Positions 34,857 to 60,957 of a stretch of 64,000 bases of DNA are shown here, in pieces. This DNA comes from Edaphobacter flagellatus. Its GTDB lineage: Bacteria; Acidobacteriota; Terriglobia; Terriglobales; Acidobacteriaceae. The stretch lies in assembly GCF_025264665.1 (NCBI RefSeq), contig NZ_CP073697.1, forward strand, positions 1,736,001-1,800,000, read 5' to 3'. The position numbers were made by a program, and so were the translations under genes. Under the pieces are notes generated by a model. It did not search any database and had not been told where the DNA came from. It saw nothing but the letters and a program-made list of their open reading frames with translations. Position 1 is the first letter of the stretch. Every line of letters starts with the position of its first letter.

Positions 34857-35678
34857 ATGGGACAGAACTATCTCACCTTCCTTTCGCAGGCCATCAACGA
34901 GCTGCTGTCGGCGCACAGCGCCGCATTGCAGGCGACGGGGCGCGATATCTTTCGCGGACTTGCGACGATCCTGGTCGTCTGGTTCGGCGTGAAGGCAGCC
35001 CTGTCTGCTTCGCAGGGACATGGCGGCTTTCACTTCGCCAAATTCGCCGACCTGATTCTGATGATCGCCTTCGGCCTCGGCATGCTCACGTATTACTCGA
35101 CGCCGATCCCTGGCACGAGCTACAGCTTCTCCGACCTCATCACCAAAGAGGCTATCCAGATCTCCGCGCAGATCCAGACCGACAATGCGCAGGACATCGT
35201 CGACTCCATCACCTCCGCCGAGCAGCAACTCGGTACACCTCCGGGTCTCTTCAGCCCGCAGGAAGACCTCGCCTGGCTTATCGCAGAGATAGCTCTCGCC
35301 ATCATGCAGGCGTTCGTCTTCGCAGTTATCGCTTACGGCTATGTGGCCACTGCCGTCTGCGTACTCGTGGGTCCGATCTTCATACCCTGGTTCATCGTGC
35401 CCAAGATGGACTGGCTCTTCTGGGGCTGGCTCAAAGCCTTTATCGGCTTCAGCTTCTATCAGGTTGTAGCAAGCGCCTTCATCTTCGTCTTCTCGAAGGT
35501 CATCATCGGTATGTTTCACGTCATCGGAACACTCGACCTCACGAACATCGTGACGCTGCTTCCCGCGCTGCTGACACTGGCCTTCGTCTGTGTCTACGGC
35601 CTGCACAAGATTCCTGAACTCACAGGCTCCATCCTCGGCGGCCGAGCCGGGACGTGGGTCGACCTCAATAAGGATTGA
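34857..35678 (+). CDS. VirB6/TrbL polytopic inner-membrane protein
   Basis: The 273-residue protein has about six hydrophobic segments (for example FADLILMIAFGLGMLTYY, IAEIALAIMQAFVFAVIAYG, AVCVLVGPIFIPWFIVP, LLPALLTLAFVCVYGL). The central WGWLKAFIGFSFYQ resembles the TrbL/VirB6 core. It forms part of the inner-membrane channel. It starts 3 bases after the VirB5-like gene, and the VirB8 gene follows 5 bases after its stop. Confidence 0.88.
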   Translation: MGQNYLTFLSQAINELLSAHSAALQATGRDIFRGLATILVVWFGVKAALSASQGHGGFHFAKFADLILMIAFGLGMLTYYSTPIPGTSYSFSDLITKEAIQISAQIQTDNAQDIVDSITSAEQQLGTPPGLFSPQEDLAWLIAEIALAIMQAFVFAVIAYGYVATAVCVLVGPIFIPWFIVPKMDWLFWGWLKAFIGFSFYQVVASAFIFVFSKVIIGMFHVIGTLDLTNIVTLLPALLTLAFVCVYGLHKIPELTGSILGGRAGTWVDLNKD

Positions 35679-35683
35679 TCGCC

Positions 35684-36361
35684 ATGGCAAAGACTCCTTA
35701 CTCCACGACTGAAGCAGGGCACAAGTTCTTGGAACTCTATGCCGAGCCTGTCATCACCAACAGCTATCTCAAGGTTGCGCTGCTCGTGCTCTCTGTCGTT
35801 GCGCTTGGCTGTCTGGCGCTCCTCTATCGCGCGCAAGTAGCTGCCTCTCATTTGAAGCCGCTTGTCATCGCTGTCTCCGACCTCGGACGCGGCCAGGTGA
35901 TGAACTACGACGACTTCTCGAAGGTCCCGGTCGAGCGCGTCAGCAAATACTACCTTGCGCGGTGGACCACACTCTATTACGGACGAAACCACGCAACGTT
36001 GCAGAGAGATTTTTCGCAGTCGCTGAGCTTTCTTTCCGATCCTTTGCAGTCCGCAACCCTGGCAAAGATCAACCAGCAAAAGACACTCGACACTTTTCTG
36101 CTCGACCCCAGCGCCGCGAACGTCGACATTGAGATCAAGGCGGTGGTGCTCGACGACACGCGGCTGGTGCCCTACCGCGCCCACATTGAGTTCGAGAAGG
36201 TTTTCTATTCTCCCGGCGATCAACAGGAACAGCGTCGCGAACGATGGATTGCAAATGTCATCTACGCCTTCCGCGACGAAGTGCCCAACGCGATGCTTCT
36301 CACTAACCCGCTGGGTGTCGTCATCAGCTACGTCCACGAAGACCAGGCATTCGGGAACTGA
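35684..36361 (+). CDS. virB8: VirB8/TrbF inner-membrane assembly factor
   Basis: The 225-residue protein has a cytoplasmic N-terminus with KFLELYAEPVITNSYLK, one membrane helix (VALLVLSVVALGCLALLY) and a periplasmic NTF2-like domain (VNVD/IEIKAVVLDDTRLVPY, ERWIANVIYAFRDE). VirB8 nucleates the secretion complex. ATG 35684 is chosen over the TTG three codons earlier. It closes the structural part of the operon. Confidence 0.87.
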   Translation: MAKTPYSTTEAGHKFLELYAEPVITNSYLKVALLVLSVVALGCLALLYRAQVAASHLKPLVIAVSDLGRGQVMNYDDFSKVPVERVSKYYLARWTTLYYGRNHATLQRDFSQSLSFLSDPLQSATLAKINQQKTLDTFLLDPSAANVDIEIKAVVLDDTRLVPYRAHIEFEKVFYSPGDQQEQRRERWIANVIYAFRDEVPNAMLLTNPLGVVISYVHEDQAFGN

Positions 36362-45976: not shown

Positions 45977-46885
45977 ATGAGCTTTGATGTCATCATTCCG
46001 TTTCTCAGACCCATCGAACAATTGCTCCAATCGAAGACCATCTCGGAGATCATGATCAATCCTGACAACTCCGTCTGGATCGAGGAAAAGGCCGAAATCC
46101 GGCGAATGCCTGACCTCCGCTTCGACGATGGCGCGCTGCTTACTGGGCTTGAAGTGATCGCCAATCGCTTTGGGAAGAAACTCGATTCGGATTCACCCAT
46201 CATGAATCTCCGGCTACCCGATGGCAGCCGCATGGCCGCGATGATTCCACCGATCGTGAACCCCAATCCGTTGGTCACGATCCGAAAGTTTACCTCGCGC
46301 GACTTCACGCTCGCCGATTTGATATGCACAGAAATGCTCACCGCAGAGCAAGGCGAGCTACTTTCCGATGCTGTCCGCAACAAAGAAAACATCCTTATTG
46401 CTGGTGGGACCGGTAGCGGAAAGTCAACCCTGCTGGGAGTACTCGCTGATGCTATCCCAGATCGTGAGCGGATTCTTCTGATCGAAGACACCGCGGAGCT
46501 TCACATTCGCAAGCCTCACGTTGTCGCAACGGAGTCACAGAAGGACACCCATCGCAGCACTGTTACTTTCAATGACCTGCTCCAAGCCATTCTTCGGCAC
46601 CGGCCGGACCGGATCATCGTTGGAGAAGTGCGTGGAGTCGAAGCCCTTACTATTCTCGACGCCATGAACACTGGACACCGAGGAACATTGGCGACCATCC
46701 ACGCGAGTAGCGCTAACGAAGCACTACGTCGTCTTGCAAGCCTAGCGATCCGGAGCGCAGCCAATCTGCAACTCAGTGTGGCCGAAGAGGATGCCGAACG
46801 CTCCCTCGATCTCATTGTGTATATCAGCAGGAGAGAAGGTGGGCGACGCGTCGAAGATGTAAAGCGAATCGCGAAACATATCTAG
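45977..46885 (+). CDS. virB11: VirB11/TrbB secretion ATPase
   Basis: The 302-residue hexameric ATPase has an N-terminal domain (LLQSKTISEIMINPDNSVWI) and a RecA-like domain with Walker A IAGGTGSGKSTLLGVL near residue 140. An Asp box (LLIEDTAELHI), Walker B HRPDRIIVGEVRG and the His box GHRGTLATIHASSA follow. It switches the machine between pilus assembly and DNA transfer. It is the last transfer gene. The 177-base gap before it shows nothing notable. Confidence 0.92.
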   Translation: MSFDVIIPFLRPIEQLLQSKTISEIMINPDNSVWIEEKAEIRRMPDLRFDDGALLTGLEVIANRFGKKLDSDSPIMNLRLPDGSRMAAMIPPIVNPNPLVTIRKFTSRDFTLADLICTEMLTAEQGELLSDAVRNKENILIAGGTGSGKSTLLGVLADAIPDRERILLIEDTAELHIRKPHVVATESQKDTHRSTVTFNDLLQAILRHRPDRIIVGEVRGVEALTILDAMNTGHRGTLATIHASSANEALRRLASLAIRSAANLQLSVAEEDAERSLDLIVYISRREGGRRVEDVKRIAKHI

Positions 46886-47167: not shown

Positions 47168-47419
47168 GTGTCACAGCAATCCAGATTCCCTACAGCGATA
47201 AACCCCGATGGCGCAGCGATCCTTGATGTCGAGCGTGGCTCGATCTCCATGCTTAACACAACCGGCTCATACATCTGGCAGGGACTCCAACGCGGCGAAA
47301 GCATCTCTTCGATCGCGGGCTCGCTTGCTCTTACCACAGGAGAAAGCTCACTTGCCGTAATGAGGGACGTGGAAGATTTTGTGGACGAACTCAAGCACCG
47401 CGGATTGATCTCTGAATGA
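47168..47419 (+). CDS. Lasso peptide B1 protein (PqqD-like recognition element)
   Basis: The 83-residue protein starts at GTG 47168 and has the PqqD/RRE fold pattern: INPDGAAILDVERGSISMLN, TTGSYIWQGLQRGESISSIA and a final helix VMRDVEDFVDELKHRGLISE. In lasso pathways B1 binds the leader and hands the precursor to B2 and C. It is the first gene of the biosynthetic arm. TTGCGA-N16-TATGCT at 47095-47122 is a possible promoter. The 282-base gap from virB11 holds no other gene I can support. Confidence 0.88.
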   Translation: MSQQSRFPTAINPDGAAILDVERGSISMLNTTGSYIWQGLQRGESISSIAGSLALTTGESSLAVMRDVEDFVDELKHRGLISE

Positions 47420-47431
47420 GGTAAAAGGCCC

Positions 47432-48811
47432 ATGCCATCCATGTCGACCATGATCGAGACGATCACGTACCGGATCATACTCATCGATCCTGTTTCGCGT
47501 GGCATCTTTGCGCTCCGCAAAGATGGTTTGTACCATCTGCCAATTTTGAAGATCCCTCAGTGGAAACGCCCCGCAGAACAACTTCAGCGAGGAATCCGTG
47601 ATACCTGGAATGTCCCTGGTATCATCCTTGGCTTTCTTCCGAACGATGATTCTTGCAAGCCATGCGCTGCCGCGGAGGTTCTCGCGACCCCGTCTGCGGA
47701 TCAACTGACATACATTCCGTTATCGGGGCTCGCTCCAGACGATCTCTCCGAAGCACAAAGAGCTTCAGTCGAAAGGATGCTCGACGGCTCAGGAGATCAA
47801 GGGAGCTTCTTCTCTCGAATCGGCTGGCTTGATCAGGTAGTGGCATGGTGTGAGACGGTAACAAACCAAAGGCTCTCTTCGAGGAGCTCGATCATCCAGT
47901 ACAACGCCGGTGGAAGTTTCACATTACTACGCTTGCCTTTGGATGACGGACAGAACTACTGGCTGAAAGCTACGGGTGAACCGAATCGTCATGAATATGC
48001 CGTAACACTGTTGCTGTCTGATGTGTGTAAGGGTTTTACACCGGATGTGGTCGCAACTCAACCCGAATGGAATGCCTGGCTGATGGCTGGCGCGGGAACA
48101 GACACCATCACATTCCCCAGCGAGCCTTTGGGGCGATACAAACTGATGGAGCACGTCATGTACTGCATGTTAGAGGCAGAGACAGAATCTGTGGAGGTCA
48201 GCCAGCAATTGCTTCGTGCGGGCGCATTCGATCAATCAATGGAGGTTATAAGTGAGAGCTCTGGCAAATTGTTCGATTATCTAGAACGTGCCATGAGTCT
48301 GCAGACATCAACTAAGGCTCCACGATTGGAAGCAAAGTGTCTGCGCCAACTTCACGACAAGCTCTTGAAAGTCTGTGAGGTCATCGGCAATCTCGGCCTC
48401 CCTCAAACAGTGGTCCACGGGGATCTGAATGACGGCAACATCATCATTGGCGAGTCCGCCTGTCAGTTCATCGATTGGGCGGAGTGCTACGTTGGGCCTC
48501 CGGGGATCAATCTCGAACACCTTCTTCTTCTCAACCGAATGGAGGACTGCGATCTACAGCGTCTGATCAACTTCCTTGTGAAGGAACGCTACGTTGAACG
48601 GTGGGGACAATGTTTTGATCGCTTTCAGACAGAGCAGGCTCGTCCCTACTGGGCATTTCTAGCGATTGTTTCATCGCTATACGGCCGGATGGATTGGCTG
48701 GATCGTCCGGAAAGGGACGGCCCGCAAAGCATGGCGTACCGTCGCTCGCTGGCTCGTCATATGAACCACGCAGCAGAAGATCCTGAATTCAGGGAGGCAT
48801 TATGTCGCTGA
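47432..48811 (+). CDS. APH-fold kinase-like protein of the lasso cluster
   Basis: The 459-residue protein has a C-terminal aminoglycoside-phosphotransferase/choline-kinase-type catalytic core: VVHGDLNDGNIII (catalytic loop with D and N) and CQFIDWAECYVGPPGINLEH (the DFG-like metal-binding D). The N-terminal 130 residues (TYRIILIDPVSRGIFALRKD) have a beta-rich pattern loosely like a Nudix or leader-binding domain, without a Nudix box. It lies 12 bases after B1 and overlaps the peptidase gene by 10 bases, so it belongs to the biosynthetic operon. It may phosphorylate the peptide or a small molecule. It is not the HPr-kinase type known from paeninodin-like clusters. Confidence 0.75.
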   Translation: MPSMSTMIETITYRIILIDPVSRGIFALRKDGLYHLPILKIPQWKRPAEQLQRGIRDTWNVPGIILGFLPNDDSCKPCAAAEVLATPSADQLTYIPLSGLAPDDLSEAQRASVERMLDGSGDQGSFFSRIGWLDQVVAWCETVTNQRLSSRSSIIQYNAGGSFTLLRLPLDDGQNYWLKATGEPNRHEYAVTLLLSDVCKGFTPDVVATQPEWNAWLMAGAGTDTITFPSEPLGRYKLMEHVMYCMLEAETESVEVSQQLLRAGAFDQSMEVISESSGKLFDYLERAMSLQTSTKAPRLEAKCLRQLHDKLLKVCEVIGNLGLPQTVVHGDLNDGNIIIGESACQFIDWAECYVGPPGINLEHLLLLNRMEDCDLQRLINFLVKERYVERWGQCFDRFQTEQARPYWAFLAIVSSLYGRMDWLDRPERDGPQSMAYRRSLARHMNHAAEDPEFREALCR

Positions 48812-50835
48812 CTGCGACTATTTACCGTTCGGTAGAAGAGATCATTCACGGCGTCAACGTCAGCGATCCATATCGCTGGCTCGAGGATCGCAGCCTTCCG
48901 GAGACCGAGGAATGGATCCGCGAGCAACAAAGGCGATGCGATGTCTATTTCGCGGAATGCAATGACATGAATGTGCTTCGTGAGGAAGTCATGTCCTATC
49001 TCGACGCGGAGGTTGTCGATCAACCCGTCAGGACGGGTGATCGTTACTTCTACCGTCGCCGCAATTCTGGAATGGAGCAGGCTTGCATCTATGTCCGTGA
49101 TGCCATAACAGGCGTAGAAACGCTGCTTGTCGATCCTTCTAGAGATGGCCCATTTGTCTCCGTAGACATTCATAGCATCGCTTCTGACGGATCATTGCTT
49201 GCCTACAAACGTAAATACGGCGGTGAGGATAAGAACTCCATTCATATCGTGGATGTCGAAACCGGAGTCGAACGGCCAGGTCACCTTAGTAAAGGCCTTG
49301 TGCGAGGTTTTGCTTTTACTCAAGACAAGAGTGGCTTCTTCTACTGCCAGGAAGCCTCCGCGACTCGGGACGACCACTTCATTTCTCTTCGTCGACTTGA
49401 TGAGTCGGTAGCGGACCAAGTCGTCTTTCGAGCGGCGCGCTCAAACGGGAGCCGCCTGGTCCTGACTGCCGATGAGGTCCACCTTGGAGCCATCTGGATG
49501 CGGGAGGTAAATGGAGAATTGATAGAAGACTTCTGGATCGCAAGGCAGGAAGATCCTGTGCATTGGCATCAGATCTTCTCAAATAAACCATTGCCGTTTA
49601 GTCCAATTCTGAGGAATGGCCGGGTCTTCGCCATCTCTGAGGAGGGCGCGGCGAATCGGAGATTAATTGAGTTAGATCCAGACGGTAAAACTCTTCGAAC
49701 GATCGTCCCAGAGCAAAAAGGAACAATGCGCGGAGTTGTGTTCGGACGAGATACCGTCTACGCGCTATTCCTAAACGAAATGCAATTTGAACTCAAATGC
49801 TGGTCTCTTGAAGGCACGGTCCTCCCTGATATTGTCTTGCGCCGAAATGGGACCGTGCATTTAATTCCGACCCACGGGAACGATGGTTCACTTTTTCTCA
49901 GCTATGAATCATTCGCCCAGCCGCCGATACTTTTTGAGTATCTTACCGAAAGCCGTGAGCTCAAGGTATGGAATACTCGGATCCCATCCCAGGGGCCTAG
50001 CGATTACGTAGTACGGGACGAAAGCTATCCTGCGATCGATGGAACTAGCATTCCCATCACGCTTGTCTCTGCGTTGGACGCACCGTCGACTTCTCCGCGC
50101 CCAGTCATTATGACGGGTTATGGAGGATTTGGCGTACCGATGACACCACAATTCTCTGTCCTGGTCAGCATCATGCTGAAACTCGGAACCGTTTTTGCCC
50201 TTCCTCATATTCGGGGTGGTGGTGAATTTGGGAAGGCGTGGCACGAGGCGGCACGAGGCAGCTTCAGACAGGTAGCATTTGGCGACTTCCTTTCTGCGGC
50301 GGAATGGATGTGCGAAGAAAAGATCACCTCTCCTACACAACTTGCTATCTTTGGCGGTTCGAACTCCGGTCTGCTTGTAGGAGTAGCGATGACCCAACGT
50401 CCGGATCTGTTTCAAGCGGTTTTTTGTGTTGCCCCATTGCTTGATATGGTCCGGTACGAATCTTTCGATGAAGCCGCGAAGTGGCGGCGAGAATATGGGA
50501 CGGTCGACGATCCGGAGCAATTCGCAGCGATCTATGCCTACTCTCCGTATCACCATGTGCAAGCGAACACGAACTATCCCTCCGTCCTGTTCGTCTCGGG
50601 CGATCGGGATGATCGGTGCAACCCAGCGCATGTTCGTAAGATGGCCGCTCGCCTTCAGGAGTCGACGAAACAGTGTCGTCCAATTGTTGTTGACTACAGC
50701 GAGGAACGAGGGCATGCTCCAGCGCTACCTCTGTCCGTCCGAGTAGATGCTCTGGCGAGACGGATTGTCTTTCTCTGTCGCGAGTTGAATCTTCCTATCT
50801 ACTTCGGAGGGGATCATGACGCGCTTTGTGTTTGA
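48802..50835 (+). CDS. Prolyl oligopeptidase family (S9A) serine peptidase in the lasso operon
   Basis: The 677-residue protein has no signal peptide and starts with the S9A pattern VNVSDPYRWLEDR. A seven-bladed propeller region follows, then the alpha/beta-hydrolase domain with VMTGYGGFG-like oxyanion segment, RGGGEFGKAWHEA, nucleophile S520 in FGGSNSG, Asp near 603-604 in GDRDDRC and H638 in ERGHAP. The full triad is present, so it should be active and cytoplasmic. It sits between the kinase-like gene and B2 with overlaps on both sides (10 and 20 bases). Its role in the pathway is unknown: trimming the peptide, degrading the leader or self-protection are options. Confidence 0.88.
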   Translation: MSLTATIYRSVEEIIHGVNVSDPYRWLEDRSLPETEEWIREQQRRCDVYFAECNDMNVLREEVMSYLDAEVVDQPVRTGDRYFYRRRNSGMEQACIYVRDAITGVETLLVDPSRDGPFVSVDIHSIASDGSLLAYKRKYGGEDKNSIHIVDVETGVERPGHLSKGLVRGFAFTQDKSGFFYCQEASATRDDHFISLRRLDESVADQVVFRAARSNGSRLVLTADEVHLGAIWMREVNGELIEDFWIARQEDPVHWHQIFSNKPLPFSPILRNGRVFAISEEGAANRRLIELDPDGKTLRTIVPEQKGTMRGVVFGRDTVYALFLNEMQFELKCWSLEGTVLPDIVLRRNGTVHLIPTHGNDGSLFLSYESFAQPPILFEYLTESRELKVWNTRIPSQGPSDYVVRDESYPAIDGTSIPITLVSALDAPSTSPRPVIMTGYGGFGVPMTPQFSVLVSIMLKLGTVFALPHIRGGGEFGKAWHEAARGSFRQVAFGDFLSAAEWMCEEKITSPTQLAIFGGSNSGLLVGVAMTQRPDLFQAVFCVAPLLDMVRYESFDEAAKWRREYGTVDDPEQFAAIYAYSPYHHVQANTNYPSVLFVSGDRDDRCNPAHVRKMAARLQESTKQCRPIVVDYSEERGHAPALPLSVRVDALARRIVFLCRELNLPIYFGGDHDALCV

Positions 50836-51193
50836 GAGCTGGGTGCTGTTGCTTTACTTCGAGTTTGTCTTGCGCTTTCGCGGCTTTAAGACATTGCATC
50901 AGACCGTTCGCAGCGCAAAGGTGCGCCCCATGACCGCAGATGCGCTGCAATCGCATATCGGCCTCTGCCACGCAATCGACCAGGCCTGTGTCTTCTACTT
51001 CAAGCGAGTCATGTGCCTCCAGCGGTCGGCAGCAACAACGTTATTATTGCGGCGGCATGGCTGGAGCGCGGAGATGGTGGTCGGGGCGCAATTATTGCCC
51101 TTCAAATCCCACGCCTGGGTCGAGATCAAAGGCTCTGTCGTGAATGACAGGCCCTACATGCCAGAAATCTACCAAGTCCTGGAACGCTGCTGA
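50816..51193 (+). CDS. Lasso peptide B2 leader peptidase (transglutaminase-like)
   Basis: The 125-residue protein has the catalytic triad of the lasso B2 family: C67 (VMCLQRSAATTLLLRRHGWS), H99 (SHAWVEIKGSVVND) and D111. The N-terminal helices (ALQSHIGLCHAIDQAC) complete the typical size. B2 removes the leader from the precursor so that the new N-terminal amine can cyclise. It overlaps the S9 peptidase gene by 20 bases and is followed by the C gene after 12 bases. Confidence 0.93.
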   Translation: MTRFVFESWVLLLYFEFVLRFRGFKTLHQTVRSAKVRPMTADALQSHIGLCHAIDQACVFYFKRVMCLQRSAATTLLLRRHGWSAEMVVGAQLLPFKSHAWVEIKGSVVNDRPYMPEIYQVLERC

Positions 51194-51205
51194 ATCGAGG
51201 CGAAG

Positions 51206-53080
51206 ATGAGCATCATATTGGGGATACGAAAACCGGAAGGAGATGTCGTCGATGAGCGACAACTGCTAGATCTTGTGCGTACGACAGACCGATGGGCACC
51301 TGATGGAACGTTTGTGCAAGCGAAGGGCAGGATCGGCATGGCCTTTCAACTCTACCGTACCCATGAACGTTCAAAGCTCGAATCGCACCCTGTCGTGGAT
51401 GATCTTGGAAACATGGTGACGCTAGATGGCCGCCTAGATAACCATAAAGAGCTCAGCGGGCTATTAGAGATCGCAGAGTCAGAGACTTCTGACTCAACAA
51501 TTATCCTTGCAGCGTTCAGGCGATGGGGTGAGATGTGTTTTGAACGGTTTGTGGGAGATTGGGCACTTGCGATCTGGTCACGCGCAGATCGGTCGCTGTA
51601 TCTTGCTCGCGATCACGCTGGAACGAGAACTCTATACTTCCATGATTGCCAGGGATCCATTTTATGGTCCACTCATCTCGACACATTCATCTCGCACAGC
51701 GCCTCATCCATTCTGGATAGGCGTTTTGCCGCTTGCTATCTTTTAGCCCTTCCTATCCGTGACCTGACTCCTTTTCGCGACGTGTATTCCGTAAGCCCCG
51801 CTCACTATATTGTGTTTCGGGAATCGCGCTCTGTGCGAAAACATTGGGAGTGGATCCCAGCAAATCAGGTTCGGTATTCTGCGGAATCCGAATATCACGA
51901 CCATTTTCTTTCTCTATTCCAGTCGGCTGTCGAACGCCGCACGGGTCAAGGTGCACCGATTCTCGCCCATTTGAGCGGTGGAATGGATTCCTCCGCGATT
52001 GTTTGTATGGCGGACTTCGTTCGTTCAAAGGAGGGTGGTGGAACATTCCAATCCGTGGACACGATTTCGTATTTTGACCATTCTGAACGACATTGGGATG
52101 ATCATCACTATTTCGAGATCGTAGAAGCCAATCGAGGCAAGTCCGGAATCCACATTGACCTTGCGTCTAACCGACGGACTTTCAAGCCAGTTCCTTTGTC
52201 CGACGGGTATTACTGTCTGCCAGGAGCAGACAGTTCATCGATAGCTGCCGAGCTACATCTCGGTCCTCTCCTAAACAATAAGGGCTACCGTGCGATTCTG
52301 AGCGGAATCGGTGGGGATGAACTTCTTGGAGGGGTGGCAACAGGGCTGCCGGAATTGGGAGACAGTCTTCTTGCTGGAAATTGGCGTGGACTTTTCACTA
52401 GCTGTGTTGCGTGGTGCATCCCTAACAGAATCCCCATTCACCAATTATTAAAGCAGGTGTTTACGTTCGTCGCCGAGATGTATCTATATCGCGGAGACTA
52501 TCGAATCCCTCGTCTACCACCGTGGATATCCCAAAGCCTCATTGAATCGGAGTATTTTCGGTCGCTCACTTTCCTCCCTGAACGTCCACCACTCACTCTG
52601 AGGCCGAGTGCAATCGACAGTGGCCAGACATGGTGGAGATTACTGGAGGGTCTGCCACACCTGACGCCTGGATTTACGATCAGGGCGGAATATCGATATC
52701 CGTATTTAGATCGTGATCTCGTTGACTTCCTCCTTCGAGTGCCCCGCGAGCAACTGGTAAGGCCGCAACGTAGACGTTACCTAATGCGTGCCTCATTGAA
52801 ATCAATTGTCCCCAACGAGATATTGGAGCGGCGCCGGAAAGGATTTCTTAGTTCTTCATTGATTCGGTCACTAAGCTCTGCAAGTGATGTCATACAGACG
52901 CACTTTGCCAACTCAAGTCTTGAAAAGGATGGGCTAATCGACGCTAAAACGTTCATCGCGTCGTTGCAATCGCTCTCCGAACATAATCCTCAAACATGGG
53001 TCGGGTTGATGACCCGCACCGTTCTACTCGAACTCTGGCAACAGACCATAGCCTCGAATAGGAAGCATTTTGCTATTTAG
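51206..53080 (+). CDS. Lasso peptide C protein (asparagine-synthetase-like macrolactam synthetase)
   Basis: The 624-residue protein has a glutamine-hydrolase-like N-terminal domain and an ATP-pyrophosphatase C-terminal domain with PP-loop SGGMDSS at 257-263. GIGGDELLGG and YPYLDRDLVDFLLRVP follow. The N-terminus is MSIILGIRKP, so the glutaminase nucleophile Cys2 is missing, as expected of lasso cyclases, which activate an Asp or Glu side chain by AMP transfer and form the isopeptide bond. It lies between B2 and the precursor gene. Confidence 0.93.
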   Translation: MSIILGIRKPEGDVVDERQLLDLVRTTDRWAPDGTFVQAKGRIGMAFQLYRTHERSKLESHPVVDDLGNMVTLDGRLDNHKELSGLLEIAESETSDSTIILAAFRRWGEMCFERFVGDWALAIWSRADRSLYLARDHAGTRTLYFHDCQGSILWSTHLDTFISHSASSILDRRFAACYLLALPIRDLTPFRDVYSVSPAHYIVFRESRSVRKHWEWIPANQVRYSAESEYHDHFLSLFQSAVERRTGQGAPILAHLSGGMDSSAIVCMADFVRSKEGGGTFQSVDTISYFDHSERHWDDHHYFEIVEANRGKSGIHIDLASNRRTFKPVPLSDGYYCLPGADSSSIAAELHLGPLLNNKGYRAILSGIGGDELLGGVATGLPELGDSLLAGNWRGLFTSCVAWCIPNRIPIHQLLKQVFTFVAEMYLYRGDYRIPRLPPWISQSLIESEYFRSLTFLPERPPLTLRPSAIDSGQTWWRLLEGLPHLTPGFTIRAEYRYPYLDRDLVDFLLRVPREQLVRPQRRRYLMRASLKSIVPNEILERRRKGFLSSSLIRSLSSASDVIQTHFANSSLEKDGLIDAKTFIASLQSLSEHNPQTWVGLMTRTVLLELWQQTIASNRKHFAI

Positions 53081-53179
53081 CCAGGTTCAGCGACAAGACG
53101 CTGCCTCGTTAACAAGATTCCTTGCATCAAGGGTCCTCCACTTGGGCGAGGAATATCCAAACACCGAAGGAGACTTGCC

Positions 53180-53326
53180 ATGAAGTACGTCAAACCTCAA
53201 ATTGCATATACCGTTGCCGCTGGGTCCGCCATTATGGGGAGCGCAGCCAAACAAAACCCCGTTGTTCAGGACAACGACATCACCCAACCCAACTGCACCT
53301 TGCCAGCCTATGAGGCTGACGAGTAA
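53180..53326 (+). CDS. Lasso peptide precursor (A gene)
   Basis: The 48-codon frame starts MKYVKPQIAYTVAAG, with AAGGAG 7-13 bases before the ATG, and ends CTLPAYEADE. The leader shows the lasso recognition motif Y3-x2-P6-x-I8. G15-x5-S21 matches the G-x5-T leader end, with Ser in place of the usual Thr two residues before the cut. Cutting after A22 would expose A23, which lies exactly nine residues from D31, giving a nine-residue ring (A23 to D31) and a 17-residue tail to E48. A23 is the only small residue that satisfies ring size, acid and -2 residue together. The core is longer than most and holds one Cys (C39). Confidence 0.8.
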   Translation: MKYVKPQIAYTVAAGSAIMGSAAKQNPVVQDNDITQPNCTLPAYEADE

Positions 53327-53401
53327 TCAGCATACTGTCATCTCTCGGCGGTCACGCAAAGGGGCCGCCGAAGGTGATGGTTCGCAAGCAGAGTATCTTC
53401 A

Positions 53402-55738
53402 CTAGTGTCGTCGATTTTCGTCAGACATGTGTTTGAGATTTTGCCAACGTTGATATTGTTCCGGATCGACAGGAGCGCTACTTCGATCACCCTGCAGCCA
53501 AAATCTATACCAATCTAGATTTCTCTGCACACTGGCCAGCCTTGCTTGTGGATGTTCGGGTTGATGTTGTTCACTCGGGTAGTAATACAGTTCCACCGGC
53601 TTCTTAAGTCGATTCAGGCCTGTCAGCACCTCGTAACGTAGATTCAGACTGTATGGCGAGGCTCCCACCTTGTCGTCGAGTACACCTTCGCCCATAACTT
53701 CCATGAGCAGAGGGGTATGTATCTTCTCCAGGTTAAAGGAGATGGAGTATCGCTTCCAATTATCCAAGGACGTACCATAGGGCGGTCCACCATACATCAG
53801 ATCCATTGGTCTGGTTTGAGCTTCCGTGTGGCTCAACCAGTATTCACTGAGGTTGTATTGGACATTATCGGTCACCGTGGCAGCAGCATAATGAGTCTTC
53901 CCATGAACGAGGGCGAACTCTACATGCCAACCCGTTCTACTGAATCCAATGATTCCAACTCTATCCGAGTCGACCAGACCTTCATTGGCAAGTTCCTTCA
54001 CCGCACTGTCCCAAACATCCGTATAGAAGACTGCCTCTGAGATATTTCCAGGATATCCCAAGGGGTACTTCGCATTACGCTCTCCATCCTTCAGAATGAG
54101 GTACAGCATCCCCGCAGCCGCGACGGGTTGGGGCGCGAATGATGGAGCGTGACTACTGCCCGCATCGCAGACAAACGAACTTTGGCTCGACTTTGTCTGG
54201 ATTACAAGAGGATAACGTTTAGTAGATTCATACCCGAGCGGCTTGATTAACGTGCCGGTCATATTGGTTCCGTTCGAGGTCTTCCAGTGAAACGTCTCTG
54301 ACGGCGCGAGTTCGATGACATCGAAGGTAGGGTTGAGTTTCGTGAGGGAGATGAGAGAACCAGTGTTCACGTTGTAGACCCTTAGTTGCGGTGATGTGTC
54401 GCTTCGCTCATAGCCGGTTACCCCAAAGGTGCCGTTGCTCGCAATAGCCTCTGATTCTTCATCTGTGTCTGGAATGATGCTCTGCGCTGTCGTTGCCCAA
54501 CCGGTTGTCACGCGACGCAAGCGGATAATATGCCCCGCCACGCTTCGTATCAGAAGCGAATCCGGCTTCACCCAGAGAATCACATTTGCCGGATCCGTGA
54601 TGTCTTCAGCGACTCTTTCCAATACACCGTTTATCATGGATACGCGCCATATATGCCAAGGTTTCCAAGGTGTTGGATGGGCTGACTCGTCTTGCTTTTC
54701 CCACTCTGTTCCCACTGGAGAAGCAGCAACGATATAGAACGAAGTACCATCGGGTGACCACTGCGGGGTTCCGGTGGCCCCGGTAGTTTTGAATGGCATG
54801 GATGTTTCCGCGCTTTTCAGATCCTGCAAGACCGTGATCCAGACGAGTCCACCGCTTGCGACTCTCCTCTTGTATGTTGGACTTTGAAGCCATTCTGCGG
54901 GTAGAGGCGTTCCGTCAAGTTCCTCACCTTTAGCCATATCGATGTCGGAGATATTCACCAAGAACTGTGCCCCATCCGGGGAGAAACTGAAGTTAAAATG
55001 AACAGCGCACCGTACGGTATCCAGTCTCTTGCCCGTAAAAGGAGAATGAATCGGAACGGTCTGCGGTTTGGCCCACCGCGCTCCAACGCGGTGTATGACC
55101 CAGATTCGGTAGGGTACCCACCGGCTTCGCCATGTCATGGCGATGCTTGGGATGCTGTTGGGAAGAATACGATAACCTCTGTCGATGTCCTCCTCAGAAC
55201 GGCCCAGCGTCATCAACGCTTGCTCTTTCTTTGCAAACACGACTGTATTTCCTGCTTGATCGATGGCGTACTCATCGATGTCTTCTTGAGATGAGGCCAC
55301 AAGTCTGGAGTTGCCAGTCCTGACATCGAAGAGGAGGATCCGAGTGTCTCCCTTGTGCGATACAAGAACTGCAAGGTGTAAGCCATCTCCGAGCCACTGA
55401 ACCTGCGACAGGCCTGACGTTGCCACAAGCAACTTAGGACTGCTGCGTTGTAATCCGGGTAAGTCACGCACGTACAACTGAATCTCATCCTGGTTAGTTC
55501 TGAGATTCGGCGACATAACGAGGTATGCCACCTTTGTACCTTGGGGGTTGATCCGAATTGAGTTGGGATGGTTATCGAGGTACTTCGTTTGAACGCAGTC
55601 CAGTGGGGTAACTGGCCGTTTTGCATGCAATAGAGGTGATGCGAGACCGATCATCGATATCGGTATAAGGCGAAAGATCCAACCGGAGAGAGCTCTCTTT
55701 CGAGATCGAGTGTTCAGTATCTGATGTGAATGTGTCAT
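53402..55738 (-). CDS. Lasso peptide isopeptidase, AtxE2 type (S9 family, secreted)
   Basis: The 778-residue protein has a signal peptide (IFRLIPISMIGLASPLLHAK), an incomplete beta-propeller and a C-terminal hydrolase domain. The nucleophile is S600 in IIGFSRTGWHVEFAL, a segment typical of lasso isopeptidases. The acid is probably E684 (VMGEGV) in place of the usual Asp, and the base is H725 or H729 (PSEQHQPEHP). The Ser-Glu-His set agrees with what I recall for AtxE2. These enzymes open the isopeptide ring of a threaded lasso. It is one base from the receptor gene and convergent with the precursor gene 75 bases away. Confidence 0.9.
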   Translation of the reverse strand: MTHSHQILNTRSRKRALSGWIFRLIPISMIGLASPLLHAKRPVTPLDCVQTKYLDNHPNSIRINPQGTKVAYLVMSPNLRTNQDEIQLYVRDLPGLQRSSPKLLVATSGLSQVQWLGDGLHLAVLVSHKGDTRILLFDVRTGNSRLVASSQEDIDEYAIDQAGNTVVFAKKEQALMTLGRSEEDIDRGYRILPNSIPSIAMTWRSRWVPYRIWVIHRVGARWAKPQTVPIHSPFTGKRLDTVRCAVHFNFSFSPDGAQFLVNISDIDMAKGEELDGTPLPAEWLQSPTYKRRVASGGLVWITVLQDLKSAETSMPFKTTGATGTPQWSPDGTSFYIVAASPVGTEWEKQDESAHPTPWKPWHIWRVSMINGVLERVAEDITDPANVILWVKPDSLLIRSVAGHIIRLRRVTTGWATTAQSIIPDTDEESEAIASNGTFGVTGYERSDTSPQLRVYNVNTGSLISLTKLNPTFDVIELAPSETFHWKTSNGTNMTGTLIKPLGYESTKRYPLVIQTKSSQSSFVCDAGSSHAPSFAPQPVAAAGMLYLILKDGERNAKYPLGYPGNISEAVFYTDVWDSAVKELANEGLVDSDRVGIIGFSRTGWHVEFALVHGKTHYAAATVTDNVQYNLSEYWLSHTEAQTRPMDLMYGGPPYGTSLDNWKRYSISFNLEKIHTPLLMEVMGEGVLDDKVGASPYSLNLRYEVLTGLNRLKKPVELYYYPSEQHQPEHPQARLASVQRNLDWYRFWLQGDRSSAPVDPEQYQRWQNLKHMSDENRRH

Positions 55739-55739
55739 C

Positions 55740-58700
55740 TCAGAACTTCACCTTCAGCGCAAATTGCATGGATCGGGGTCCACCTTGCTGGTAGAGCGAA
55801 CTCATGGTGCCAAGACTCTGGGCAAGAGTCTTAGTGGCCTGCCCGAAGGTGGCGCTGGTCAAGCCAGGATCGACATATCCGAAAACGGGGTGGTTCAGAA
55901 GATTGAAGGTTTCAGCCCGGAATTGAAGCGATGTATTCTCTCCAAGCGGGAAGTCTCTCCTCAACGCCAGATTCAGCTGCGTTGCTCCAAAGCCTCGTAT
56001 GAAGTTGCGGGGAGCGTTGCCTGGAGAGGTTCCACTTGGGAGTGCAAACGCCGCTCGATTGAGCGCTCGGCCACCAGGATATGAGTCTCCATACAGGTAT
56101 ATGGGCTGACCTGACACAAGATTTACATTTGTGGTGTAGAAGCCCGTGATCGGATCAGAAACCGTATTGCCTGACAGAGTAACGGGGAACGCTGTGCGGG
56201 AGATGAGCCGGCCATCAATTCCCCACTGTGATAGCAGCACAGAACCGATTTTTCCACTTCTGACCTGAGGCGCATTCCACGTGAGGCCAGCTTGAAAATT
56301 GTGCCGAACATCGAAGTCCGAATTGCCACGGAAGAGCGGTAGCGCCGAGTTATTGGACCCAAAATCTATGGAATGAGACCAGGTGTAGGAGGCGAGAGCC
56401 TGAATCCCATTGGCCACTGAGCGTTGGAATTTCGCCTGGAGCGCCTGGTAGTTCGACGTTACACCTGTAGGGAAATAGTAGACATAGCCAAAATTTGGAT
56501 TGACTGAGGCGAGATTGATGGTCTGAGACTGCAAAAGCCGTCGGCCATTCGATCCAACATACGAAATTGTCAGCGATTGGCTTCGGGACAGCGCTTGTTC
56601 AAGCGCGCCGTTCCACTGAAAGCTGTACGGAAGTTGAAGGTGGGAAGGAAAGGCATATACGGAAGCCGTCGGGTATGGTGGCGTGACCGATATTCCAAAA
56701 TTCTGTTGTGCCGAGGTTGCGGGCAGCGGTGATCCGTTATAGCTTTTCGTTGCGCTAAAACCCAGCCCGCTATAGCCTCCGGCTGCGATGGCATTGTCGT
56801 TGTCGAAGAAGACGCCTCCTCCGGCGCGAACGACGGTCTCCCATCCCGGATTCGTGTGCGCCTGCCACGCAAGTCCAATTCGCGGCGCGAAGTTATAGTA
56901 GGCGGCGTTCCATAGTGGCGTGCCCTGGGGAGCAACGGTGAGTTGGGATGGATTACTTATATTCCCTTGCAAGGTATATGCATTGGGCCCATCAGAATTG
57001 GTGGGTGGCGGTGCAAGCTCCCACCGAAGTCCCGACGACAAGACTAGACGAGGAGCTAACCTCCATTCATCCTGAGCGAATACCGACAACTCGTTGAAGA
57101 CCGGCCTGGCAGATAGAGACTGCTTGATTTGCAGGGTACTGGCCGAGTTCGTGACAAGAGACTGCCTTGTCGTGAACTGGGTATAGAGATAGGGTGTGGG
57201 CGGAATGATTGGTGATGCAATCCTCCGATAATCTGCGCCAAGCTTGATATGGTGGTGTCCAGCCGTCGCAGAAATAGTATCGACGAGATTCCACTGGTTA
57301 TTCGAATTGCGTCCTGTCATTTCCGTGAGGTATGAAGCGCCGATGCCGACGAAGTTTAGGTAAAAGCTTGTGTAGGCCGATGTGGTGGATGCCAGACCGA
57401 CTGCCGCTCGGAGATTCAAGGGAACGGCGCCTCCGAAGGAATCAAGCCGCGATTGCAGAGTGGCCTCACCGCTGTTGTACCCAAGCCGGAGCTCATTGGT
57501 CAGTGCCTGCGAGATTTGCCAGGTCAGTCCCGCGGTATATGTATCGGAACCGCCATGGATAGACTGGACGCTCGAGAGTAAGCGTGTAGAGGTAGAGCTG
57601 GGTGTCGTTCCCCACCGAAAGAATCCTGACAGGGATTCGGAGAAGGTGTGATCGAAACGGACGCTGGTGGAATCAATCGCCCCAGGAAGAGAGTATGTGG
57701 AGATGAACTGAGCTAGCGTTCCATAGTCGATGCCGCCCGCAGTCGGCAATGGATACGCATTGAGAATCGGTTGGAGGGTGGTCGCCGCACTCTGACGAAG
57801 AGTCATATCAGGCACGTATTGAATACTTGCTGCTTGAGGCGCCCTCAACCGTAGTCCTTCGTAAGATACGAAGATGAATGTCGGATGGGTGCGCTGATGC
57901 CACGGAAAAAGTGGACCTCCAAAAGTTCCGCCAAAGTCGTTTTGGCGTAGAGCCGTTTTCGCCCTCCCATAGTGCTTATTGAACCAATCATTTGAATCGA
58001 AGACGTCATTTCTCAAATAATCGAACACGGTTCCGTGAAATTGGTTCGTTCCCGAGCGGGTAAGAAAGCTGATCTGTCCTCCAGGGCTGCGACCATATTC
58101 TGCGGAATACGTCGAGCTCTGAACTCGAAACTCCTGCATCGCATCGACGCCAAGGAGACTCTGTGTCGTACCAAGTGTGGTGGATGCTGCGACAGTCCCA
58201 CCCGTAGCGCTTTGGCCTCCACCGGTCGGATAACCCGCACTGGCCGCTGCGGAGACACCATCGACCATGTAGTAGTTCGATTCCGTGCGCTGACCGTTTA
58301 TAGAAAAGTCTCCTCGATAACCGATATTGGAGGAAGCTTGCGGACTCTGCGTTACGACTCCTGGCGTCATGGAAATCAGGTCTTGGAAACTTCGCCCATT
58401 GAGCGGCATATTCTCGACAAACTTTCGATCTACGACAGTGCTCACCGAAGCATCTGTTGTGTTAAGTAATGCAGAACCAGCCTCCACCGTTACGGTCTCG
58501 GAGGCTGCGCCTATTGGCAATGTGAAGTTCAAGGCGACAGCACTCTGCACATTCAAAACAACGCCTGGTGTGACGATTGTCTTGAAGCCGATCTTTGATA
58601 CTTGAACTCGGTATTGGCCAGGAGGAAGGACTGAAAGTGTATAAACACCAGAATTGTTTGTCTTGTTCACGTACTGAACGCCAGTTGCCTCATTTAGTAT

Positions 58701-58838
58701 CTGGACGTCTGCATCGGGAATGACCTGATCAGTGGGATCCGCAACCTGACCGCTAATAGTCGCATTAGTCGATTGAGAAAGGGCAGACGTCGTAAAGCAG
58801 AATAATAGCGATACGCGAAGAATCCAGCTACGGCGCAT
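55740..58838 (-). CDS. TonB-dependent receptor of the lasso cluster
   Basis: The 1032-residue protein has a signal peptide (VSLLFCFTTSALSQ), a carboxypeptidase-regulatory-like domain (SGQVADPTDQVIPDADVQIL, GVYTLSVLPPGQYRVQV), a plug (NMPLNGRSFQDLISMTPGVV, YYMVDGVSAAASAGYP) and a beta-barrel ending in aromatic F (SMQFALKVKF). It has no N-terminal STN signalling domain, so it does not follow the FecA scheme exactly. By analogy with astexin-type clusters it may bring the lasso peptide, or a complex of it, into the periplasm where the isopeptidase acts. It is co-transcribed with the isopeptidase gene. Confidence 0.87.
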   Translation of the reverse strand: MRRSWILRVSLLFCFTTSALSQSTNATISGQVADPTDQVIPDADVQILNEATGVQYVNKTNNSGVYTLSVLPPGQYRVQVSKIGFKTIVTPGVVLNVQSAVALNFTLPIGAASETVTVEAGSALLNTTDASVSTVVDRKFVENMPLNGRSFQDLISMTPGVVTQSPQASSNIGYRGDFSINGQRTESNYYMVDGVSAAASAGYPTGGGQSATGGTVAASTTLGTTQSLLGVDAMQEFRVQSSTYSAEYGRSPGGQISFLTRSGTNQFHGTVFDYLRNDVFDSNDWFNKHYGRAKTALRQNDFGGTFGGPLFPWHQRTHPTFIFVSYEGLRLRAPQAASIQYVPDMTLRQSAATTLQPILNAYPLPTAGGIDYGTLAQFISTYSLPGAIDSTSVRFDHTFSESLSGFFRWGTTPSSTSTRLLSSVQSIHGGSDTYTAGLTWQISQALTNELRLGYNSGEATLQSRLDSFGGAVPLNLRAAVGLASTTSAYTSFYLNFVGIGASYLTEMTGRNSNNQWNLVDTISATAGHHHIKLGADYRRIASPIIPPTPYLYTQFTTRQSLVTNSASTLQIKQSLSARPVFNELSVFAQDEWRLAPRLVLSSGLRWELAPPPTNSDGPNAYTLQGNISNPSQLTVAPQGTPLWNAAYYNFAPRIGLAWQAHTNPGWETVVRAGGGVFFDNDNAIAAGGYSGLGFSATKSYNGSPLPATSAQQNFGISVTPPYPTASVYAFPSHLQLPYSFQWNGALEQALSRSQSLTISYVGSNGRRLLQSQTINLASVNPNFGYVYYFPTGVTSNYQALQAKFQRSVANGIQALASYTWSHSIDFGSNNSALPLFRGNSDFDVRHNFQAGLTWNAPQVRSGKIGSVLLSQWGIDGRLISRTAFPVTLSGNTVSDPITGFYTTNVNLVSGQPIYLYGDSYPGGRALNRAAFALPSGTSPGNAPRNFIRGFGATQLNLALRRDFPLGENTSLQFRAETFNLLNHPVFGYVDPGLTSATFGQATKTLAQSLGTMSSLYQQGGPRSMQFALKVKF

Positions 58839-58945
58839 GAGAACTCCTCTATGAATGGACTTAAAGGTGGTGAGTCAGTCCGTTTACAGAGGGAGCCACA
58901 TGTTGTTGTCAGATAAGTTCGTAAAAGCGATCCGATAACAAGCAA

Positions 58946-60238
58946 CTAAGGATGATTTGGCGGAAGTTTCAGATAGGTGAACAAAAGTGGCTTGCTCGTG
59001 GGCCTGCTGCTCGTTCCATGAGACTCCACAGTGACGAAGACTGCGTCGAGCTGAGAGAGCATTGCGCTGTCATTCGACTTCAGAACCCATCTCTTCTTGT
59101 TCTGATCATCTTGATAGAAGACCCCGAGGCTGACGTCATGCTCTTGATCGACTCCTCTGCGTCCCCACGCTTGAAAGGTACTAGCGTGCTTCACGCCTGG
59201 TTGTTGATCGAGATCATACGCATAGAAGACCAGAGACCTTCCCTGCGTATAGAACACTCTGCCGAACGGCTTCTGCGTCTTTCCCGACTTTGCTACGTCG
59301 TAGATCTCGCCAATGTAGAGGTCGCGGGCTCCCATCAGATTACGGATGTCGCGATCATGCTCCAGCAGTTCTTCCTCTTGCACGATTTGCTGCTTCTTTT
59401 CCTCCAATTTGGCTGTGAGGTCATCCACGCGTTTCTGAAGGATGTCTGTCGATGGTAGTACGTCTAATGATGCTTTCTCTGCGTCCAGCTTAGCCTGCAG
59501 GGACTGGGTACTGGCCTGCGACACTGAGAGACGTTTCTCCAGGTCTGCACGTTCCTGCTCTGTCTGTCGGAGAATTCCATCTCGTTCCTGCAATTCACTG
59601 AGAAGCGAGAGACGCTGATCCTTCAGCATCTCATTTGTCGAGGAACTTGTATCCAAACGACGCTGTAACTGATCGACCTTCACCGTAATCCGCTCTTCGG
59701 ACCTCTCGACCGGTGCCGATACTTTCTTCTCTTCGAGAACGGCGGCCCTCACAATCGCAACTGTCCGCTCTTGAGGCATGGACATAGTCACAAAACGCCC
59801 GTGTTCAAACCCAAGTCGGTAGCCGACAAAGCTGCACGCCACAATCGATACTGCTGCGATGGCGAGCAGGCCCAAGTGATGTGGTTTCTCCGGGGCGGAA
59901 TCGAGTTTCTCTGGCTCGACCCCTTCCTGCTCAATCCTTTCGAAGAGTGCGGCTTCGGCCTTCTCAGGCGACCAGGGATCGGGAGAATCCCCGTGATCCG
60001 CGTCCCTTCTATTCGCGGCCATGGCCGGTAGGGTTGTCGAAACAACGCGATCGTACTCTGCTTTGATCGCTCGACAGCTGGCACAAAGACCAAGATGCGT
60101 CTCAAGCTGTCGCCATTCTGCCGGCGTCAAGGTTCCGGTCGATGCGAGGGAGCATAGTTCTATGAAATATTCGTCAGCGTGATACGGGTCGACGATGGGA
60201 GCTTCAGGATTCCAGTCGATGTCCACGGTCTCGCTCAC
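58946..60238 (-). CDS. Membrane anti-sigma factor with coiled coil
   Basis: The 430-residue protein starts at GTG 60238, overlapping the sigma factor stop (GTGA). Near residue 50 it has a zinc anti-sigma motif (LETHLGLCASCRAIKAEYDR, H-x3-C-x2-C). A single membrane helix lies near 122-145 (LGLLAIAAVSIVACSFVGYR), then a coiled coil at about 170-295. The periplasmic end resembles anti-sigma-K/RskA domains (DLYIGEIYDVAKSG, FGRVFYTQGRSLVFYAYDLD, FQAWGRRGV). It should hold the ECF sigma factor at the membrane until a signal arrives. Confidence 0.85.
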   Translation of the reverse strand: MSETVDIDWNPEAPIVDPYHADEYFIELCSLASTGTLTPAEWRQLETHLGLCASCRAIKAEYDRVVSTTLPAMAANRRDADHGDSPDPWSPEKAEAALFERIEQEGVEPEKLDSAPEKPHHLGLLAIAAVSIVACSFVGYRLGFEHGRFVTMSMPQERTVAIVRAAVLEEKKVSAPVERSEERITVKVDQLQRRLDTSSSTNEMLKDQRLSLLSELQERDGILRQTEQERADLEKRLSVSQASTQSLQAKLDAEKASLDVLPSTDILQKRVDDLTAKLEEKKQQIVQEEELLEHDRDIRNLMGARDLYIGEIYDVAKSGKTQKPFGRVFYTQGRSLVFYAYDLDQQPGVKHASTFQAWGRRGVDQEHDVSLGVFYQDDQNKKRWVLKSNDSAMLSQLDAVFVTVESHGTSSRPTSKPLLFTYLKLPPNHP

Positions 60239-60957
60239 TTGGTTCTCAACCTTGCAGCAAAGGCTGGCTTCCGCAGTTTCTCCAACCCACGGTAGTAATG
60301 ATTCCGTACATTGCTGAGCGTTTGCCCACGACGATCAGCGATCTCCTCTAATGTATAGCCTTCGAAAAAGTGAAGTTCAATTGTCACAAGTTGAGAAGGT
60401 GAAAGCAATTGCCGCAGCCTGGTAGCAGTTTCCTTCCCCCACACGCCTTCAAGAGACCATTCAATGAAATGCGACTCGGATTGACGTTGAGCCACAGTTA
60501 GCATCACTTGTTCGAGATCCCCGCTAGTGTAGAAATGTCGAGTCTTCAGATATGCCCGTCTATTGAATGCTCGGGAATAGGTGACTTGGACGATCCACGA
60601 GCGGGCCGCTCCATGCGTTGCTTTAAACAGCGCGGCTTTCCGAAAAAGAAACATGAACACCTCCTGCACGAGGTCGTCAGCCTCAGCCTCATGCCGAAGA
60701 ATCCTCCAGGCCACATTCCGAACCACACGCGCATGTCGACGGAACAGTTGGCTCAGTGCATCTTTGTCACCTGTGGCCACTTGTTCTAACAGCGTCTCGT
60801 CAGAGGCTTGATCGATCGAGGCCATTGCGCCGGAAGGATGAGCCGTGACATGGCTTCCTACGGAAACGACAGATGAATCGGGGCAAGCAGGGTCCTTAGG
60901 GCGAACTTCACCGTTCGATAGAGCATCCGGAAAATAGGCCGCTGCTTCGGAACTCAT
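60235..60957 (-). CDS. ECF-type RNA polymerase sigma factor
   Basis: The 240-residue protein has region 2 (LFRRHARVVRNVAWRILRHE, ADDLVQEVFMFLFRKAALFK, RSWIVQVTYSRAFNRRAYL) and region 4 (LSPSQLVTIELHFFEGYTLE, EIADRRGQTLSNVRNHYYRG). The first 45 residues before MASIDQASDE are not part of the sigma fold, and ATG 60825 is an alternative start, but GAGG before ATG 60957 favours the long form. It is paired with the anti-sigma gene and probably drives the receptor/isopeptidase arm, perhaps also the biosynthetic arm. Confidence 0.9.
   Translation of the reverse strand: MSSEAAAYFPDALSNGEVRPKDPACPDSSVVSVGSHVTAHPSGAMASIDQASDETLLEQVATGDKDALSQLFRRHARVVRNVAWRILRHEAEADDLVQEVFMFLFRKAALFKATHGAARSWIVQVTYSRAFNRRAYLKTRHFYTSGDLEQVMLTVAQRQSESHFIEWSLEGVWGKETATRLRQLLSPSQLVTIELHFFEGYTLEEIADRRGQTLSNVRNHYYRGLEKLRKPAFAARLRTK

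Follow-up and report, generated by a model that had tools for sequence, protein, structure and literature searches.

A lysine-keyed ring predicted for a lasso-type peptide encoded on a putative integrative and conjugative element of Edaphobacter flagellatus

Where does the peptide encoded by a lasso-type gene cluster of Edaphobacter flagellatus close its ring? The window, the whole stretch of DNA analysed here, comprises 64,000 nucleotides (G000:C1:1736001-1800000, G000 being the organism's own genome, a single contig of 4.45 Mb) and carries the cluster at positions 47168-60957. In the sections and passages of the papers covered here, the ring of lasso peptides is closed at the N-terminal amine; the other statements on the literature below have the same scope. 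A preliminary description of this DNA had assumed an ordinary lasso core, and this did not hold. The core from the predicted cut reads GSAAKQNPVVQDNDITQPNCTLPAYEADE, and no ring of 7-9 residues can be drawn from its first residue, Gly20, because its first acidic residue stands at core position 12. Counted from Lys24, Asp31 is position 8. The precursor gene lies as follows:

53180..53326, + strand: precursor of 48 aa with leader residues 1-19 (Tyr3, Pro6, Ile18), predicted cleavage 19|20 and a proposed ring Lys24-Asp31

Its tail contains Thr40 and ends in AYEADE. Profile searches gave no family match for the precursor. It is not a chance open reading frame (ORF), since 52 of the 398 family genomes contain profile relatives of it.

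Relatives were compared by tblastn on 37 relatives' loci of at most 20 kb each (40 loci were searched, three of them from the own genome) and by profile searches on 98 regions, namely the window and 97 loci. Alignment on the leader Tyr revealed a fixed cleavage register: residue -2, 15 residues after this Tyr, is Ile in 83 and Val in 17 of 100 precursors (101 matches less one duplicate). From one or other of the counts given here, L085 (a duplicate of L065), precursors without a terminal Tyr, the over-long L168 frame and the contig-edge loci L040, L081, L086, L104, L116, L118 and L119 were left out, and L192-L194 lie outside the analysis. Counted from residue 1, only 38 of 99 non-redundant cores show an acid at 7-9, compared with 26 in shuffles. 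A scan of all residues and spacings found Lys at ring distance 7 in 59/99 cores (expected 9) and at distance 8 in 36/99 (expected 8). Altogether, 91 of the 99 cores have a Lys with Asp or Glu at ring position 7 or 8, whereas 200 shuffles gave a mean of 16.2 and a maximum of 25.

This rule was derived on family f1 and then tested on every f7/f9 place (24 loci) from the class search. Out of sample, 38 of 45 cores showed a ring of 7 or 8 from Lys (shuffled mean 8.1, maximum 15 in 500 shuffles), or 37 of 44 without the one over-long frame, L168. The combined set contains rings of 7, 8 and 9 residues from Lys in 74, 54 and 5 cores, which makes 133 of 143 non-redundant cores. The ten exceptions begin with Gly (nine) or Ser (one) and have an acid at 7-9; none of them has Arg at this spacing. 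Residue +1 is Gly in 48 of the 133 Lys-type cores and in nine of the ten others (p 0.001); in the Lys-type cores it is Arg five times and Pro, Phe and Leu once each. The Lys itself lies 1-8 residues past the conserved cleavage site, and its flanking residues are not conserved. Taken together, the pattern among the relatives points to ring closure at Lys in these peptides, not at the usual first residue. Other starting points for the window's core were rejected: a 7-9 ring from Gly20 (Asp at 12), and starts at Ala23 or Gln25, as only Lys stands out among ring-start residues across the relatives.

As a control, 20 further loci with the leader peptidase B2 were examined and their precursors listed without any acid filter. 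No isopeptidase was found in these 20 loci. Six candidate precursors came from five of them, and 15 loci gave none. Those of L156, L160, L166 and L167 carry Thr(-2) together with an acid at 8 or 9 and lack a Lys spacing, while the two precursors of L161 combine Ile(-2) and Asn/Ile1-Asp8 with a Lys spacing of 7. The control loci L162 and L163 are kinase-bearing clusters resembling that of the window.

The precursor closes the plus-strand arm of the cluster (47168-53326; B1, kinase, prolyl oligopeptidase, B2, C, precursor), towards which a minus-strand arm (53402-60957; isopeptidase, TonB receptor, anti-sigma and ECF sigma factor) converges:

47168..47419, + strand: B1, a PqqD-like leader-binding protein (RiPP recognition element, RRE, where RiPP is a ribosomally synthesised and post-translationally modified peptide; PF05402 E 2e-12; NF033530 E 8e-8, below cut-off)
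47432..48811, + strand: candidate peptide kinase with a NUDIX-fold N-terminal domain (about residues 1-120) and an aminoglycoside phosphotransferase (APH)/choline-kinase fold (H329-G-D, D348)
48802..50835, + strand: S9A prolyl oligopeptidase (PF02897 and PF00326; best PDB match prolyl endopeptidase 2bkl, E 1.7e-99)
50816..51193, + strand: B2 leader peptidase, C67/H99/D111 (NF033537 E 2.4e-21, 76.5 bits against a cut-off of 33)
51206..53080, + strand: C, an asparagine-synthetase-like macrolactam synthetase (PF00733; NF033535 E 2e-71)
53402..55738, - strand: lasso isopeptidase homologue (NF033523 E 3e-58), with the Ser in GFSRTG (GFSRTGWHVE) and, by alignment, a conserved His near the C-terminus
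55740..58838, - strand: Oar-type TonB-dependent receptor (PF25183 E 8e-136, PF13620, PF07715 (Plug))
58946..60238, - strand: anti-sigma factor (PF10099; NF052375 below cut-off)
60235..60957, - strand: extracytoplasmic function (ECF) sigma factor (PF04542/PF04545, TIGR02937)

The functions of B1, B2, C, the kinase, the prolyl oligopeptidase, the isopeptidase, the TonB receptor and the sigma/anti-sigma switch are assigned by homology. All ORFs of the cluster are uninterrupted. Every part named in the preliminary description, from B1, the B2 triad and C to the 48-residue precursor, isopeptidase, receptor and ECF/anti-sigma pair, was recovered at its place, as were the converging arms, and no ABC exporter was found among the genes scanned at 47-61 kb. 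Its view of a complete production-and-uptake lasso-type cluster in an acidobacterial host stands. A check against lasso-family profiles agreed in part: B2 exceeded the NF033537 cut-off, whereas C had NF033535 as its best family and remained below the cut-off. In the PDB ranking of the isopeptidase, AtxE2 (5txc) came first (E 1e-21), followed by 5jrk. A PDB sequence search with B2 gave no match, and inspection of the S9A enzyme by eye revealed no signal peptide.

The C protein has the PP-loop LSGGMDSS and lacks Cys2, and its GGDE is followed by the Lys-type signature GG.....PEL. Gly376, after GGDE, is present in all 82 C proteins of Lys-type loci and in one of six from loci with canonical cores; for Glu383 the counts are 72/82 and 1/6. 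The single canonical-core C protein with both residues is that of L059. Tandem C genes, the second with a degenerate GGDE, occur in L114, L185 and L191, whose precursors end in or near D-W-E; the Lys spacing in L185 and L191 is 9.

The kinase shows the APH fold with its HGD and D/W catalytic residues and had only weak matches in a PDB sequence search. Ser or Thr stands at -3 to -6 of the terminal Tyr in 72/72 kinase-positive and 2/13 kinase-negative precursors; counted by cluster, the figures are 58/58 with and 2/8 without a kinase, a contrast that 4000 simulations on the C tree never reached. In this count, L102 has no clear cluster, L065 has a stray second precursor and L100 is a kinase-S9A fusion. 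Because of this distribution, we predict that the kinase phosphorylates a Ser or Thr of the tail, which would be Thr40 in the window. The C-terminal motif [AGS]-Y-x-x-D-E (53300-53326 and relatives) is nearly invariant, with D in 66/69 and E in 68/69 kinase-positive precursors. In L100:11733-15158, the kinase and the S9A prolyl oligopeptidase form a single frame of 1141 aa, a hint that the two enzymes are functionally linked. A helix-turn-helix (HTH) protein at 62224-63036 resembles, by eye, an ORF standing in the place of the kinase in L057, L103, L110 and L127.

From these parts, the following account can be assembled, which as a whole we consider moderately probable. B1 would grip the leader through Tyr3, Pro6 and Ile8, and B2 would cleave after residue 19, with Ile18 at -2. 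C would link the side chain of Asp31 to Lys24. The resulting ring of 8 residues would be preceded by GSAA as a short N-terminal tail and followed by a long C-terminal tail that ends in AYEADE. The kinase would phosphorylate the Ser or Thr 3-6 residues ahead of the terminal Tyr (Thr40). Once secreted, the peptide may be captured outside the cell by its own TonB receptor, which would signal via the anti-sigma and ECF factors, and the isopeptidase would open the imported peptide. The module on the integrative and conjugative element (ICE) would thus make, secrete, re-import and linearise a Lys24-Asp31 lasso-type peptide with a phosphorylated tail.

The cluster is real and well defined; the chemistry of its ring is unproven. 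Closure at Lys24-Asp31 would perhaps use the side-chain amine, towards which we lean over the alpha-amine, as the Lys is conserved, the ten exceptions contain no Arg at the spacing, the Lys lies at a varying distance past a conserved cut between unconserved flanks, and residue +1 is relaxed (Gly in 48/133). Ring-atom counts by hand, 26-32 atoms through the epsilon-amine and 22-28 through the alpha-amine of Lys, do not decide between the two. We therefore put forward only tentatively an acidobacterial class of lasso-type RiPPs in which a diverged lasso cyclase joins the epsilon-amine of a conserved Lys to an Asp or Glu at 7-9, leaving free N-terminal and C-terminal tails, and which is moved among the acidobacteria of soil by ICEs that also occur in uptake-only forms with receptor and isopeptidase.

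Alternatively, Lys could be residue 1 of the mature peptide, the extension before it being removed after the B2 cut, perhaps by S9A, or avoided by a shifted B2 cut, so that the alpha-amine of Lys24 closes the 8-residue ring. We regard this as possible, though somewhat doubtful. The Lys-based rings of 7, 8 and 9 match the residue counts stated for lasso rings (PMC10368454), and extensions are longer in clusters with S9A (43 versus 23 clusters, median 4 versus 2, p 0.001), but in a phylogenetic regression this link had p 0.054, and the 23 clusters scored as S9A-negative, including the doubtful cluster L102, keep extensions of 1-5. A canonical ring is possible in 12/59 cores with S9A and 22/35 without (p 5e-5), and none of four Group II constructs lacking the peptidase genes (a prolyl oligopeptidase, POP, in three cases) gave product (PMC12670498). 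On the other hand, the residues preceding Lys are not conserved, and a conserved Lys would bring no obvious benefit where the alpha-amine otherwise belongs to Gly, Ser or Ala. A role of S9A as a C-terminal trimmer at Pro was rejected; Pro stands at -2 of the Tyr in 14/69.

An unthreaded, lasso-like lariat or a decayed or idle cluster is improbable. E. coli gave no product from the acidobacterial biosynthetic gene cluster (BGC) 482.1 (PMC9064862) or from the four Group II clusters (PMC12670498), as such a reading would expect; the ORFs of the window are nevertheless intact, the layout recurs across dozens of genomes, and known isopeptidases require threaded substrates (PMC9266682). A lasso of the ordinary kind that starts at Gly20 and has a large ring, its Lys conserved for another reason such as receptor binding, is very improbable: the Ile18 register does place the cut before Gly20 and in 43 of the 133 Lys-type cores an acid stands at 7-9 counted from residue 1, but the first acid of the window is at 12, the 38/99 cores that allow such a ring compare with 26 in shuffles, and +1 is often other than Gly, including the single Pro, Phe and Leu.

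Several points weigh against the account with closure at Lys. In the 43 cores just mentioned, a canonical 7-9 ring can be drawn as well, Lys frequently standing at position 3. The precursor profile, derived from Lys-type members, may under-represent other types, and the same profile found the test set, in which the Tyr was chosen to favour Ile, Val or Thr at -2; the leader registers of L065b, L068, L100 and L105 were set by hand. L059 has a Lys-type cyclase, yet its Lys spacing is only 6 residues, and the markers Gly376 and Glu383 may be confounded by phylogeny. C scored 241.5 bits with NF033535 (cut-off 525), and the isopeptidase 198 bits with NF033523, short of the threshold of 400 for this AtxE2-family profile. 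In the test set, counted without the contig-edge loci L168, L170, L171, L173, L178, L180 and L189, a tail Ser or Thr was present in 12/12 kinase-positive and 6/7 kinase-negative precursors, which gives no support to the kinase link. Finally, we infer the threading and the ring bond as well as the cleavage site and the phosphorylation, as the papers covered report no product for such clusters.

The preliminary description had also placed the cluster on a conjugative element. In agreement with this, an integrase, a type IV secretion system (T4SS), a coupling protein and imperfect attachment repeats were found:

25011..25087, + strand: tRNA-Val (gac; ARAGORN, Rfam), the left attachment site, directly 3' of which the element begins
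25093..26325, - strand: tyrosine integrase of the ICE (PF00589 E 1e-20)
29275..36361, + strand: T4SS genes VirB4, VirB9 (CagX), VirB10 (TrbI), VirB6 (TrbL) and VirB8 and one further ORF (Pfam)
43769..45799, + strand: VirD4-type coupling protein (PF12696, PF10412)
45977..46885, + strand: VirB11-type ATPase (PF00437 E 2e-52; TrbB/VirB11 models below cut-off)

A genome-wide pattern search revealed a single further copy of the tRNA-Val 3' end, with two mismatches, at G000:C1:1883380-1883402, which we propose as attR. By eye, it resembles tRNA-Val throughout the 3' half, where the changes in the T-stem are paired; no tRNA gene is predicted there, and attR was not found as a direct repeat at 13-mers within 60 kb. 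The putative element would extend from 1761088 to 1883402, a length of about 122 kb, and its att repeat is imperfect. No relaxase family was found among the ORFs scanned, which were not all ORFs of the element and of which several had no match at all. Because of the T4SS genes, the integrase next to tRNA-Val and the proposed attR 122 kb away, we regard the lasso cluster as sitting on a putative ICE of about 122 kb at tRNA-Val. Its T4SS region holds or adjoins two DNA methyltransferases, at 27263-28342 and 36741-38558 (N6/N4 and C5), and large ORFs lie just inside the proposed attR end (L134-L135, 1872-1883 kb of the own genome), possibly a defence or DNA-processing island.

Carriage of this kind was also found in other genomes. 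Relatives of VirB11 were found in 140/398 family genomes, and of the 53 places counted with at least 61% identity, 13 have a lasso or uptake-only locus no more than 25 kb away; a rough chance figure is 0.15. Lasso or uptake loci lie near VirB11 in G000, G010, G016, G030, G049, G055, G096, G137, G223 and G236, and uptake-only loci in G026, G171 and G209:C100. ICE carriage of lasso or uptake-only loci is therefore recurrent.

In the order, B2 relatives occur in 112 of 397 genomes and isopeptidase relatives (E <= 1e-20) in 67 of 397, the weaker of which are perhaps not all lasso isopeptidases; a protein search gave four isopeptidases of at least 50% identity besides the window's own. By tblastn and profiles, the convergent layout recurs in dozens of genomes, usually with the kinase and often with S9A. 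The two enzymes, previously taken for extra cargo, are thus common parts of the family, as they are frequent in the relatives' loci.

In ten of the 67 genomes with an isopeptidase relative, B2 had no match; one case (G310) is a contig end, and among the other nine, G026, G038, G054, G103, G154 and G171 are at least 97% complete. In G026, which has virD4 and virB11 of the same ICE family (75 and 71%), only receptor and isopeptidase follow, each as an uninterrupted frame. This locus (L137, G026:C1:1586990-1594627; genome 99% complete, no B2 match) is a candidate non-producing user. Clean uptake-only cases are few, because the G038 isopeptidase gene is split and has no neighbouring receptor, the G054 match breaks off at residue 683 of 777 and does not reach the conserved His, that of G154 is short and G310 ends with its contig. 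The isopeptidase of G171 is broken across two frames. Receptor-isopeptidase loci with no biosynthetic genes in the fetched region are L038, L058, L060, L069, L126 and L129. GFSRTC replaces GFSRTG in one of the two L038 isopeptidases and in L060, L069, L126 and L129, and L058 has GFSWTC. The precursor-like ORF L065:5699-5917, perhaps a relic, adjoins a receptor-isopeptidase pair that lacks biosynthetic genes nearby.

If true, a Lys-keyed ring, which fits 133/143 precursors from a group abundant in soil, would amount to a new register of ring closure. The lack of product from such clusters might then be due to wrongly expected masses and to the genes that were omitted. With uptake-only copies present on the ICE family of the window, the purpose of isopeptidase-type lasso peptides can be tested directly, namely whether they are shared goods from which non-producers draw.

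Astexin-type clusters have a fused B protein, Gly1 and Thr(-2). The window differs from them in its separate PqqD and B2 genes, Ile18 at -2, the NUDIX-APH kinase and the prolyl oligopeptidase, and in contrast to the astexin Gly1, we infer that Gly20 does not close the ring. The likeness to astexins stated in the preliminary description therefore applies in part: astexin/sphingopyxin clusters share the isopeptidase, TonB receptor, sigma/anti-sigma pair and lack of an exporter, but have a GntR regulator and are described without kinase or POP (PMC9266682).

The combination of parts, previously called new, was partly on record: acidobacterial clusters with a kinase (PMC9064862, PMC10368454) and split-B clusters with POP from soil (PMC12670498) have been published as predictions. 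The Lys register is the new element here; titles and abstract openings gave no account of a Lys-keyed ring, of ICE carriage or of uptake-only loci. BGC 482.1, an acidobacterial cluster from a soil metagenome (Negri 2022) whose ring was predicted from Gly, has B1, an 'aminoglycoside phosphotransferase' kinase, B2 and C like the window, and two 141-bp precursor genes (PMC9064862). The Group II BGCs of the metanodin paper likewise have split B, tailoring genes and, in three cases, POP (PMC12670498). Unlike the present account, the texts on both contain no Lys register, ICE carriage or kinase site (PMC9064862, PMC12670498). Earlier lasso precursors have Thr(-2); Duan et al. 2023 tested Ile(-2) processing experimentally in BsfA of Bradymonas and noted Ile/Val(-2) in Acidobacteriaceae (PMC10368454). 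The bsf cluster shares Ile(-2), a YxxPxL leader, split B1/B2 and a kinase with the window, but has an HPr-kinase-like enzyme acting on Ser3, an ABC exporter and a canonical Gly1-Asp8 ring; the word 'isopeptidase' was not found in that text, whereas the window has an isopeptidase homologue (PMC10368454). Ile/Val(-2) clusters all have a kinase or phosphotransferase according to PMC10368454, while eight clusters here have none.

The paeninodin and pseudomycoidin kinases act on Ser/Thr of RiPP precursors, as proposed for the window's candidate. LxmK of lexapeptide, whose substrate is likewise a Ser/Thr of a RiPP precursor, shares the APH-like fold. Paeninodin-type kinases act on the C-terminal Ser, whereas the window encodes a NUDIX-APH fusion with a predicted site within the tail.

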